From: Bacteroidaceae bacterium | GTDB taxonomy: Bacteria; Bacteroidota; Bacteroidia; Bacteroidales; Bacteroidaceae | Assembly: GCA_017547165.1 (NCBI GenBank) | Contig: JAFYQK010000022.1 | Span: 1 to 64,000, forward strand | Direction: 5' to 3' | DNA: 64,000 nt | In this document: positions 13,256-58,836 of the stretch, in pieces | Numbering within the stretch: position 1 is the stretch's first letter | Layout: each line of letters starts with the position of its first letter | Notes under the pieces: model-generated | The model's input: only the letters and a program-made list of their open reading frames with translations | Told to the model about the DNA's origin: nothing | Databases searched by the model: none | Made by a program: the position numbers and the translations under genes

Positions 13256-13287
13256 TTTCATCAATCCAGAAAAAAGTCGTAATTTTG
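13256..13287 (+). promoter_or_regulatory. Promoter for carB leader transcript
   Basis: TTTC (13256-13259), a 20-nt spacer and TAATTTTG (13280-13287), one base off the TTTG / TAnnTTTG consensus. The predicted start near 13293 would give a leader of about 190 nt before carB. Confidence 0.65.
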
Positions 13288-13297
13288 TTCGCGATAA

Positions 13298-13418
13298 ACA
13301 GGAGGATACATGCATAAGTATCGACAGAAGCAAATATACTTCCTCTGTGAAGAGGATAATGAATAGCATAGGTAAGCCATTCTATCCGGTGATTCACCGC
13401 CGGTTAGAGTGGCTTTTT
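13298..13418 (+). promoter_or_regulatory. Attenuator-like carB leader with competing hairpins
   Basis: Directly visible: (a) a terminator of 14 pairs with one mismatch and one G-U, arms 13376-13389 and 13400-13413, followed by five T; (b) an alternative helix pairing 13354-13364 with 13379-13387, which consumes the terminator's 5' arm; (c) an early helix 13298-13306 with 13341-13348 that competes with the local hairpin 13341-13345/13352-13356. The helices are mutually exclusive, as in an attenuator. An 18-codon ORF spans this region. The leader lies between a consensus-like promoter and carB, whose ATG is at 13487. The controlling signal is not known. Confidence 0.6.
13310..13366 (+). CDS. 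Putative 18-residue leader peptide upstream of carB
   Basis: ATG at 13310 is preceded by a perfect AGGAGG (13300-13305), striking in a phylum where Shine-Dalgarno motifs are rarely used. The ORF reads MHKYRQKQIYFLCEEDNE and stops at 13364-13366, ten nt before the terminator hairpin. There is one Arg codon and two Gln codons but no run of any single amino acid, so classical amino-acid stalling is not obvious. Translation through the stop would cover one arm of the alternative helix. The purine-rich motif might instead be only part of the RNA structure. Confidence 0.4.
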   Translation: MHKYRQKQIYFLCEEDNE

Positions 13419-13486
13419 CTTTGAAACTTTTACTACACTGCAAACTTCTGTTTTTTAAGGAAAAGAAAAATAATTTACATACAACG

Positions 13487-16400
13487 ATGAAAAAGCAACT
13501 AAAGAAAGTTCTCGTATTGGGAAGTGGCGCTTTGAAGATTGGTCAGGCGGGCGAGTTTGACTATAGTGGTTCACAGGCATTGAAGGCTCTACGCGAGGAG
13601 GGCATCTATTCTGTGCTCATCAACCCCAATGTGGCTACAATCCAGACCAGTGAGGGTATTGCCGACAAGGTATATTTCCAACCCGTTGATGCACACTTCG
13701 TTACCGAGGTTATCAAGAAGGAACGCCCCGATGGCATCCTGCTCGCCTTCGGTGGTCAGACTGCCCTGAACTGCGGTACTGAGCTCTATCTGAACGGCAC
13801 TCTTCAGGAGTACGGCGTGGAGGTTCTTGGCACCAGCGTGGAGGCCATTATGAACACCGAGGACCGCGACCTTTTCGTTAAGGAGCTGAACAAGATAAAC
13901 ATGAAGTCTCCCGTTAGCCAGGCTTGCAACAACATCGAGGATGCCATTGCCACAGCTCGACGCATCGGTTATCCCGTGATGATTCGTAGCGCCTATGCCC
14001 TGGGTGGTTTGGGTAGCGGTGTCTGCAAGGACGAGGAGATGTTCAAGGAGATTGCCGAGAGCGCATTCACCTTCGCACCCCAGGTTCTCGTTGAGGAGAG
14101 TTTGAAGGGCTGGAAGGAGATTGAGTTCGAGGTTATCCGCGATGCCAACGACCACTGCTTCACCGTGGCTGGCATGGAGAACTTCGACCCTCTGGGCATC
14201 CACACCGGCGAGAGCATCGTTGTGGCATCTACCTGCACTCTGCGCGAGGATCAGGTTGCCATGCTTCAGGACATCGCTGTTAAGTGCGTACGCCACCTCA
14301 ACATCGTGGGTGAGTGTAACATCCAGTATGCTTTCAATGCCGAGACCAACGACTATCGTATCATCGAGATCAACGCACGTCTGAGCCGTTCTTCTGCCCT
14401 TGCTTCAAAGGCTACAGGTTATCCCTTGGCTTTCGTTGCTGCCAAGATTGCTCTGGGCTACACTCTCGACCAGATTGGCGAGATGGGTACCACAAATAGT
14501 GCATATGTTGCTCCCCAGCTGGACTACATCATTGCCAAGATTCCTCGTTGGGACCTCACCAAGTTTGCCGGTGTTAGCCGCAAGATTGGTTCCAGCATGA
14601 AGTCGGTAGGCGAGATTATGAGTATCGGTCGCTCTTTCGAGGAAATCATCCAGAAGGGTCTCCGCATGATTGGTCAGGGCATGCACGGTTTCGTATGCAA
14701 CGATCAGGTGCATTTCGACGATCTCGACGAGGAGTTGGCAAACCCTACCGACATGCGCATCTTCGCCATTGCACAGGCTTTGGAGGAAGGCTACTCCATT
14801 GAGCGCATCGAGGAACTGACAAAGATTGATCCCTGGTTCCTCTCTCGTTTGAAGAATATCGTTGATATGAAGCATCAGCTTCAGACCTACGACGGCATCG
14901 AGGTAGTACCTGCCGATGTGCTCCGTCAGGCCAAGGTGATGGGCTTCAGCGACTTCCAGATAGCACGTTGCGTATTCACTGCCGGCGCTGGCAATATGGA
15001 GCGCCAGAACCTTATGGTTCGTGAGTACCGCAAGAAGTTGGGCATCCTGCCTGCCGTTAAGCGTATCCCCACCGTGGCAAGCGAGCATCCCGACCTCACC
15101 AACTACCTCTATATGACCTATGCTGTAGAGGGATATGATGTAAACTATTACCAGAACTCAAAGAGCGTAATTGTGCTTGGTTCAGGTGCTTACCGTATCG
15201 GTTCAAGTGTTGAGTTCGACTGGTGTTCGGTTAATGCCATCCAGACAGCACGCAAGTTGGGCTACAAGAGCATCATGATCAACTACAACCCCGAGACCGT
15301 GTCAACCGACTACGATATGTGCGACCGTCTCTACTTCGACGAGTTGAGCTTTGAGCGCGTTCTCGATGTCATCGACCTTGAGAGCCCCAGCGGTGTCATT
15401 GTCAGCGTGGGCGGACAGATTCCCAACAACCTGGCCATGAAGCTCTTCCGTCAGGCAGTTCCCGTACTTGGCACCAACCCCGTCAGCATCGACCGTGCCG
15501 AGAACCGTGGCAAGTTCAGCGCCATGCTCGACCAGCTTGGCATCGACCAGCCCCGTTGGAGCGCACTCACCAGTATGGAAGACGTTAATAAGTTCATCGA
15601 CGAGGTAGGCTATCCTGTACTCGTTCGTCCCTCTTATGTCCTCTCTGGTGCTGCCATGAACGTATGTCACAACGACGAGGAACTCGAGCGCTTCCTTGCC
15701 GAGGCAAGTCAGGTGAGCAAGGAGTATCCCGTGGTTATCTCCGAGTTCATGACCGAGACCAACGAGATAGAGTTCGACGGTGTTGCACAGAACGGTGAGA
15801 TTGTAGAGTATGCCATCTCCGAGCATGTAGAGTTTGCCGGTGTACACAGTGGTGATGCCACCATGTGCTTCCCTGCCCAGCAGATTTCTTTCGCCACCAC
15901 ACGTCAGATCAAGCGCATCTCTCGTGCCATTGCCAAGGAGTTGAACATCTCTGGTCCATTCAACATCCAGTATCTGGCCAAGGGGCGCGACGTAAAGGTT
16001 ATCGAGTGTAACCTCCGCGCCAGCCGTTCATTCCCCTTCGTCAGCAAGGTGCTCAAGCGCAACTTTATAGAGACAGCTACACGCATCATGCTCGATGCTC
16101 CATATACCAAGCCCGATAGCAGTGTGTTCGACATCGACCATATCGGCGTTAAGGCCAGCCAGTTCTCGTTCAACCGTCTTGCACCTGCCGACCCCATCTT
16201 GGGTGTCGACATGAGCTCTACCGGTGAGGTAGGTTGCTTGGGCGACAGCTTCGAGGAGGCACTCCTTAACTCTATGATTTCTACCGGCTACAAGATTCCT
16301 TCAAAGGACAAGGGCGTTATGCTCTCAAGCGGTGGCACCAAGGAGAAGGCTTCTCTGCTCGATGCTGCACAGGCTCTCTGCAAGGCTGGTTACACCATTT

Positions 16401-16720
16401 ATGCCACCGAGGGTACCGCACGCTTCCTCAATGAGAACAATGCCAAGGCCATCCCCGTATGCTATCCCGACGAGGTGGGTACAAAGACCGATGTTCTCAA
16501 TATCATGGACATGATTTCTCAGCACAAGGTGGACCTCATCGTCAACGTGCCCAAGGATCACACCAAGCGCGAGAAGACCAACGGTTACCGCATCCGACGT
16601 GGTGCCATCGACCACAACATCCCCCTCATCACCAACGCACGTCTGGCAAGCGCCTTCATCGAGGCCTTCTGCCGCATGCCTCTCGAGGATGTTCAACTCA
16701 AGTCTTGGCAGGAGTATTGA
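13487..16720 (+). CDS. carB: Carbamoyl-phosphate synthase large subunit
   Basis: Forms carbamoyl phosphate from bicarbonate, ammonia (from glutamine via CarA) and two ATP, for pyrimidines and arginine. The 1077 residues from the ATG at 13487 start MKKQLKKVLVLGSGALKIGQ, matching family starts; an upstream in-frame start at 13409 would lie inside the terminator hairpin and is rejected. Two homologous ATP-grasp halves are visible, the second beginning at SVIVLGSGAYRIGSSVEFDW. The C-terminal methylglyoxal-synthase-like regulatory domain includes LIVNVPKD. carA is not adjacent in this window. Codon use is strongly biased to C/G-ending codons compared with recF or lysC, as expected for high expression. 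Confidence 0.97.
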   Translation: MKKQLKKVLVLGSGALKIGQAGEFDYSGSQALKALREEGIYSVLINPNVATIQTSEGIADKVYFQPVDAHFVTEVIKKERPDGILLAFGGQTALNCGTELYLNGTLQEYGVEVLGTSVEAIMNTEDRDLFVKELNKINMKSPVSQACNNIEDAIATARRIGYPVMIRSAYALGGLGSGVCKDEEMFKEIAESAFTFAPQVLVEESLKGWKEIEFEVIRDANDHCFTVAGMENFDPLGIHTGESIVVASTCTLREDQVAMLQDIAVKCVRHLNIVGECNIQYAFNAETNDYRIIEINARLSRSSALASKATGYPLAFVAAKIALGYTLDQIGEMGTTNSAYVAPQLDYIIAKIPRWDLTKFAGVSRKIGSSMKSVGEIMSIGRSFEEIIQKGLRMIGQGMHGFVCNDQVHFDDLDEELANPTDMRIFAIAQALEEGYSIERIEELTKIDPWFLSRLKNIVDMKHQLQTYDGIEVVPADVLRQAKVMGFSDFQIARCVFTAGAGNMERQNLMVREYRKKLGILPAVKRIPTVASEHPDLTNYLYMTYAVEGYDVNYYQNSKSVIVLGSGAYRIGSSVEFDWCSVNAIQTARKLGYKSIMINYNPETVSTDYDMCDRLYFDELSFERVLDVIDLESPSGVIVSVGGQIPNNLAMKLFRQAVPVLGTNPVSIDRAENRGKFSAMLDQLGIDQPRWSALTSMEDVNKFIDEVGYPVLVRPSYVLSGAAMNVCHNDEELERFLAEASQVSKEYPVVISEFMTETNEIEFDGVAQNGEIVEYAISEHVEFAGVHSGDATMCFPAQQISFATTRQIKRISRAIAKELNISGPFNIQYLAKGRDVKVIECNLRASRSFPFVSKVLKRNFIETATRIMLDAPYTKPDSSVFDIDHIGVKASQFSFNRLAPADPILGVDMSSTGEVGCLGDSFEEALLNSMISTGYKIPSKDKGVMLSSGGTKEKASLLDAAQALCKAGYTIYATEGTARFLNENNAKAIPVCYPDEVGTKTDVLNIMDMISQHKVDLIVNVPKDHTKREKTNGYRIRRGAIDHNIPLITNARLASAFIEAFCRMPLEDVQLKSWQEY

Positions 16721-57891: not shown

Positions 57892-58836
57892 ATGAAGAAT
57901 AGAAGTCTTGTGACCCTTGCTGGTCACTCCCGAGAAAAGATTGAGTATCTTATAAAGATGGCTCAGGAGTTTGAAAAGCATCCCAACCGTCGATTGCTTG
58001 CCGGCAGGGTAGTGGCAACCCTGTTTTTTGAGCCATCGACAAGAACACGCCTCAGTTTTGAAACTGCCGCCAACAGATTGGGAGCGCGTGTTATTGGATT
58101 TGCCGACCCCAAGGTGACAAGCGGCACCAAGGGTGAAACGCTCAAGGACACGATAATGATGGTGTCGAGTTATGCTGATGTCATTGTTATGCGCCACTAT
58201 CTTGAGGGTGCTGCCTTGTATGCCAGCGAGGTGGCTCCAGTGCCTATAATGAATGCCGGAGATGGTGCTAACCAGCATCCGTCGCAAACGATGCTCGACC
58301 TATATACTATTTATCAGACACAGGGCACACTTGATAACCTTAATATCTATATGGTTGGCGACCTGAAGTATGGTCGCACCGTTCACTCATTGCTGATGGC
58401 AATGCGTCACTTCAATCCCACTTTCCACTTTATTGCTCCTGACGAATTGGCAATGCCCGGTGTGTATAAGAGGTATTGTGAGGAGTATGGTATTAAATAT
58501 GTTGAGCATAAGGATTTTGATGCCGATACAATAAGTGATGCCGATATACTGTATATGACTCGTGTACAGAAGGAAAGATTTGTGGACCTCGATGAGTATG
58601 AGAGGGTTAAGGACCGCTATTTGCTCAAGAAGGATATGCTTGTAAAGGCACGTGAAAATATGAAGATCTTACACCCGTTGCCACGTGTGAACGAGATAGA
58701 GTACAGCATTGACGATACACCTTATGCATACTATTTCCAGCAGGCTCAAAATGGTTTGTATGCCCGTCAAGCCCTGATCTGTGATGTGTTAGGCATCACT
58801 CTTGAGGATGTGATTAACGACAAGACGATATTGTAA
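57892..58836 (+). CDS. pyrB: Aspartate carbamoyltransferase catalytic subunit
   Basis: 314 residues from the ATG at 57892 ([20 protein letters not shown]). Condenses carbamoyl phosphate and aspartate to carbamoyl aspartate, the committed step of pyrimidine synthesis. The carbamoyl-phosphate signature [37 protein letters not shown] and HPLPRVNEI are all present. It is followed 30 nt later by pyrI, so the two form an allosteric PyrBI holoenzyme like that of enterobacteria. The substrate comes from CarB, encoded at 13487-16720 in this window. Confidence 0.97.

Follow-up and report, generated by a model that had tools for sequence, protein, structure and literature searches.

The window, the whole stretch of 64,000 nucleotides analysed here, comes from a gut Bacteroidota bacterium and carries on its forward strand a promoter, an 18-codon leader open reading frame (ORF), an intrinsic terminator and carB, in that order. 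The promoter at 13256–13287, assigned from sequence, reads TTTC-19 nt-TAATTTTG, in agreement with the near-consensus promoter of the original prediction, and its TAATTTTG box fits TAnnTTTG, the −7 box of Bacteroidota. The Shine-Dalgarno-like AGGAGG (13300–13305), the leader ORF (13310–13366) and carB downstream also lie where they had been placed. The ORF encodes the peptide MHKYRQKQIYFLCEEDNE, and its stop codon precedes the terminator's GCCATTC by 9 nt. The carB gene (13487–16720, ATG at 13487) encodes the CPSase large subunit, with 1404 bits to TIGR01369 (cut-off 1027). The terminator, recognised by fold, conservation and resemblance to purF, had been described with 14 pairs and T5 at 13376–13418; it does exist, with a stem of 17 predicted pairs at 13374–13415 and a U tract with one C reaching 13422 (TTTTTCTTT at 13414–13422). 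The leader from 13290 to 13422 folds at a z-score of −4.5, mostly through the terminator, and 0 of 200 shuffles folded as well.

Neither carA nor a purF-like gene was matched in the window genome, which is 84.5% complete, and carB there is not beside carA. Elsewhere in the window, a pyrB-like gene (57901–58317, PF02729 match) immediately follows a promoter of its own and has no attenuator leader. The window carB (13487–16717) shares 98.2% DNA identity with that of a related locus, L002, compared with 79% in the upstream TonB-receptor region, so a recent exchange of carB is possible.

Leaders of related carB genes

A set of 139 genomes of the genus was searched with CarB, and 136 gave a match. 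After removal of 13 duplicate loci from the carB set, 39 leaders of this carB type were gathered, as promoter, ORF, terminator and carB in that order, from the genus genomes and from loci among 37 from named contigs; 38 are different, L070 and L121 being identical. All 39 genus leaders keep this order, for which they were collected, and because a TAnnTTTG-type box upstream of the leader ORF was a collection criterion, its presence is by construction. The leaders comprise group 1 (n = 10, including the window), group 2 (n = 8) and group 3 (n = 21). The group-2 leader of G128 was left out of the 39, and three loci (L018, L033 and L037) have no readable start. The 56 other carB upstreams include L114, with a terminator at the contig edge, L053, with a terminator and no TAnnTTTG found, and eight named-contig loci. 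TAnnTTTG occurs within 75 nt of the carB ATG in 31 of these 56, and between terminator and carB in 0 of the 39 leaders.

With start codons chosen by hand in group 1 and by motif in group 2, the ORF reaches the terminator zone in 39 of 39 carB leaders. All ten group-1 ORFs have 17–21 codons and stop 2–10 nt before the terminator; all eight group-2 ORFs have 9–10 codons and stop 8–12 nt before it. The group-3 stop codon, TAG, lies inside the terminator in 17 of 21 leaders and at its edge or start in two, and the remaining two ORFs run through it. For L070 and L121, an earlier ATG gives a 13-codon ORF stopping about 7 nt sooner. In dinucleotide shuffles, the ORF–terminator geometry had single-leader probabilities of 0.12–0.67; their products, 5.6e-6 for nine divergent group-1 leaders and 7.7e-5 for eight group-3 leaders if independent, are too small because the leaders share ancestry and are not independent.

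The peptide itself is not conserved in group 1. Among six gap-free ORFs, differences are spread about evenly over codon positions, and the peptides share 4–13 of 17 residues pairwise. Judged from these alignments, the group-1 peptide is free and the reading frame kept; translation of these ORFs is putative, since no codon-position bias was seen. Peptides do resemble one another within group 2 and, for most members, within group 3. Reading of the peptides revealed no common codon run, as had been stated for the window peptide, and none for an end-product amino acid of the trp type. Furthermore, a U-rich stretch resembling GTTTGTCT was seen, by eye and without a statistic, in most group-3 leaders and in L158, and not in groups 1 and 2.

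The terminator is the best-kept part of the group-1 leaders, with a mean identity over eight of them of 81%; third positions of carB average 65% and the ORF 54%. In the terminator, 4 of 16 pairs had changed on both sides among nine leaders. To the eye, the 3′ ends of these carB genes look different. A hairpin inside the ORF, predicted at 13341–13345/13352–13356 and drawn here as 13341–13346 with 13351–13356, has moderate support from shuffle z-scores and paired changes. Its mean z-score was −1.48 over the ten group-1 leaders (further means −1.86 and −1.10), and single members were no better than shuffles (e.g. L020, z = +1.19). In six group-1 sequences, double-sided change affected 3 of its 8 pairs, a number that 43 of 500 shuffles also reached, and 85.4% of cells were paired versus at most 64.6% in slid controls.

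Two longer-range helices of the original prediction fared less well. The antiterminator helix 13354–13364/13379–13387 can be drawn in the window, but the best duplex of the pre-terminator leader with the 5′ arm of the terminator is no better than shuffles (z = −0.86, p = 0.19). The group means in the same assay were z = +0.37 (10 group-1 leaders), +0.75 (8 group-2) and +0.25 (21 group-3), and an antiterminator competing with the terminator was therefore rejected. Sequestration of the Shine-Dalgarno motif through helix 13298–13306/13341–13348 was also rejected: AGGAGG is found in the window only and missing from the other 38 leaders (AGGAG in one more, L116), and the helix cannot be general where its motif is not. 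That AGGAGG is unusual was borne out, as 0 of the 61 ORFs of 150 codons or more that were called mechanically in the window have it within 18 nt upstream; excerpted text of PMC6847099 describes Bacteroidota mRNAs as naturally without Shine-Dalgarno sequences.

Model searches indicated how far the element extends. A group-1 model (R1), run over 399 genomes of the family, matched in its own genus only, in 4 genomes. Within the genus, R1 matched five group-2 genomes at E-values of 4e-4 to 1e-2 and additionally gave antisense matches. One match (G124, E = 0.0035) lies before a gene other than carA or carB and equals several group-2 matches, so the bridge between groups 1 and 2 is weak. The same attenuator was found at none of the pyrB or argF' upstreams printed (23 places in 12 genomes, several with badly called ORF starts), suggesting that the element here goes with carbamoyl-phosphate synthesis genes. 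The leader gave no Rfam match at threshold, and PyrR was above cut-off in 0 of 9 genomes, with weak sub-threshold matches in six, and in 6 of 14 control genomes.

Eight of the ten group-1 genomes gave no carA match, and G004 and G131 have carA; a lone CarB may use ammonia or some other partner. CarA and CarB also occur fused in the genus, in open frames of about 1450–1567 aa with both matches (e.g. G066:C22 and G121:C9), and frames of about 935–1020 aa hold CarA plus the N-terminal half of CarB.

A terminator-like hairpin inside purF-like genes

The terminator resembles a hairpin and U tract found, in related genera, within the coding sequence of a purF-like gene that precedes carA. A 51-position model, built from carA-leader terminators and from those of group-1 and group-2 carB leaders, matched 66 of the 139 genomes of the genus. 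In the family it matched 111 of 399 genomes (21 of 30 genera, E 0.05), 56 of them below 1e-6. Inspection of 39 matched loci (16 in the genus and 23 outside, weaker matches being left out) placed 30 in purF-like coding sequences; carA leaders accounted for 8 and a carB leader for the remaining one. The motif GHLRYSTTG is present in all 30 coding sequences, which include every one of the 23 loci outside the genus. The protein is named PurF-like because it scores 143 bits to TIGR01134, below the cut-off of 350.

Codon usage in these genes was then compared among the matches listed, in 70 purF-like genes comprising the 30 best matches to a hairpin-bearing genus gene and 40 picked from further down the matches. 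Among these listed matches, folding surpassed that of synonymous variants (p 0.05) in 22 of the 70 genes and did not in 48, and the terminator stem accounts for 19 of the 22. Synonymous-codon identity in 14 hairpin-positive genes among the matches listed was 0.73 in the hairpin versus 0.40 elsewhere, the highest of 138 windows, and in the other 56 it was 0.34 versus 0.43; this comparison is partly circular because the sets were chosen by fold, and the 56 include five genes counted as hairpin-positive for the U-tract codons. Again among the matches listed, the U-tract Leu codon is CTT in 19 of 19 hairpin-positive genes (gene background 0.19) versus 6 of 19 in the rest, and the Ser codon is TCT in 18 of 18 (background 0.08) versus 12 of 40; the stem excludes the entire Ser codon and the last base of the Leu codon. 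In 27 purF hairpins, chosen as carriers, pairing extends to 97.9% of cells; 7 cells are double-sided (reached by 0 of 500 shuffles), as are 2 pairs (reached by 46 of 500). In a set of 30 loci with and without the hairpin, a carA motif lies within 56 nt after purF in all ten hairpin-positive genes; in the 20 hairpin-negative ones it lies within 56 nt in 2, at 69–247 nt in 9 and not within the stretch seen in 9, an association only, since related species share ancestry.

Upstream regions of carA, which is present in 93 of the 139 genus genomes, extend the series. Among 40 such upstreams from 39 genomes, a non-random sample assessed by eye, 10 hold a terminator leader, and the ORF reaches the terminator in all ten. 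Several are visible purF remnants that retain the hairpin where purF was lost, from which it seems that the intragenic purF terminator became a leader attenuator. A purF-only model (R3) recovered 9 of the 10 carA terminator leaders at E 2e-7 or better (L158 at 0.07). Applied to the 38 leader loci other than the window, R3 recovered all eight group-2 carB leaders (E 1.5e-6 to 7.5e-3), listed 3 of the 9 other group-1 loci at E 0.86–4.6 and reached at best 0.33 in group 3. For the window, R3 gave 12.0 bits (E 1.5, rank 2 of 2), which is not significant. In a direct alignment to the purF consensus, the window terminator scored better than 1000 of 1000 shuffles. In this assay, in which the shuffles do not keep pairing and the controls, fixed 60-nt stretches, may cut some terminators, p 0.05 was reached by 10 of 10 group-1, 8 of 8 group-2 and 10 of 21 group-3 leaders and by 0 of 8 control 3′ regions, and p 0.01 by 9 of 10 group-1 and 7 of 21 group-3 leaders. 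By sequence likeness, the carA leaders and those of carB group 2 are thus strongly linked to purF. For the window the link is weaker; its terminator is probably a relative of the intragenic one.

We tentatively suggest, at somewhat less than even odds, that the purF-like gene of many Bacteroidaceae has a selected intrinsic terminator in synonymous codons about 345 nt from its start, which would make transcription of purF-carA-carB dependent on translation, and that after loss of purF or gene moves the element persisted and was remade into a leader attenuator before carA or a lone carB, that of the window included. Our confidence was slightly lowered by the G124 match and by the group-1 loci that R3 missed. 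If true, a regulatory element would have arisen inside a protein gene, been maintained by codon choice and outlived that gene as a leader attenuator, offering a testable case of transcription–translation coupling in Bacteroidota. None of the titles and abstract openings covered, among which subscription papers are thinly represented, reports this system.

Proposed attenuation by leader translation and its alternatives

Beyond the observed anatomy, conserved geometry, terminator conservation and similarity to the purF hairpin, we infer termination in vivo, an effect of the ribosome, pausing and descent. The reading that we prefer, with a probability of roughly 0.6, is that the window leader is a translation-coupled transcription attenuator of a lone carB whose terminator is derived from, or has a common origin with, the terminator-like hairpin in the purF-like gene preceding carA. 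The transcript would start just after 13287, and a ribosome translating 13310–13366 would reach its stop codon beside the terminator (13374–13422) and hinder its folding, so that RNA polymerase reads into carB. When translation lags behind RNA polymerase, the terminator would form and transcription would stop; the ORF hairpin (13341–13356) may set the timing by pausing or synchronising the polymerase. As a first guess, the signal could be pyrimidine (UTP) supply, a suggestion drawn from the target enzyme and the pyrBI precedent only. In E. coli, according to excerpts of PMC4824070, a stop codon 5 bp before a terminator cut termination from about 90% to below 10%, and spacing of more than 27 nt restored it. 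The distances of 2–12 nt, or overlap, found here fit a ribosome that represses the terminator directly in this way, and not alternative helices. A point against this reading is that a ribosome at a stop codon 9–10 nt away would barely reach the stem.

Four other explanations were weighed. In one of them, which we regard as unlikely, the terminator hairpin is a sequence-specific sensor whose bound protein or ligand decides between termination and read-through, with the ORF secondary. The loop and internal loop of the terminator are indeed kept in sequence, the carB 3′ ends look different by eye, and similar elements occur at carA, at carB and inside purF; however, ancestry and pairing explain part of this conservation, every leader counted has an ORF extending to the hairpin, PyrR was above cut-off in none of the nine genomes, and no Rfam family matched. 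The original prediction had left the choice between leader translation and a ligand-bound RNA open; the geometry supports the former, and the latter has no Rfam match. It is also quite unlikely that the leader is debris, whether what remains of a decayed purF or an independent small gene ending in a terminator of its own, and that carB is expressed by constitutive read-through. In carA leaders such as L160 and L161, a likeness to the PurF N terminus and its motif is still visible, and the group-1 peptides are not conserved, but the terminator is the best-kept part of the leader, ORF length and stop position are kept while the sequence drifts, and no consensus promoter follows the terminator.

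A classical amino-acid attenuator with an alternative antiterminator helix, as originally drawn, is very unlikely: both helices can be drawn in the window, yet the antiterminator did not exceed shuffles on average in any group, the peptides have no common codon run, and the stop–terminator distance of 2–12 nt contrasts with the more than 20 bp that amino-acid attenuators are said to keep in excerpts of PMC4824070. Arrest of the nascent peptide while sensing a metabolite seems highly improbable, because the resemblance of group-2 and most group-3 peptides within their groups is not matched in group 1, where the six peptides compared diverge without codon-position bias.

Translation-coupled attenuation has precedents. 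In the E. coli pyrBI operon, translation of the leader is expected to prevent termination. As described in excerpts of PMC4824070, the pyrBI terminator lies within its leader ORF (pyrL), an arrangement like the present one in that a leader ORF overlaps or abuts an intrinsic terminator before a pyrimidine gene. An ORF ending at, in or beyond the terminator, as in the pyrBI type, was found in 39 of 39 carB leaders with the starts chosen. In contrast to pyrBI, the target here is a lone carB in a different phylum, the terminator resembles purF coding sequence, the group-1 ORF is short and ends before the stem, and no U-rich pause tract is evident by eye in groups 1 and 2. PyrR-controlled attenuators likewise act in the pyrimidine pathway through a leader terminator, but PyrR was not detected above cut-off in the nine genomes. 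Bacteroid-trp RNA has a trp leader role. It was described, in excerpts of PMC2864571, as a candidate structured RNA of Bacteroidetes (RF01692); the leader here gave no Rfam match, and the window ORF has no Trp codon. In addition, excerpts of PMC7366714 report long 5′ UTRs of B. thetaiotaomicron with small ORFs reminiscent of attenuation leader peptides, and the words "carbamoyl" and "pyrimidine" do not occur in the main text of that paper. Terminators in coding regions that are repressed by translation, as excerpted from PMC4824070, follow the same physical principle; those were engineered constructs, whereas here the hairpin and U tract are preserved at synonymous sites in some purF-like genes.
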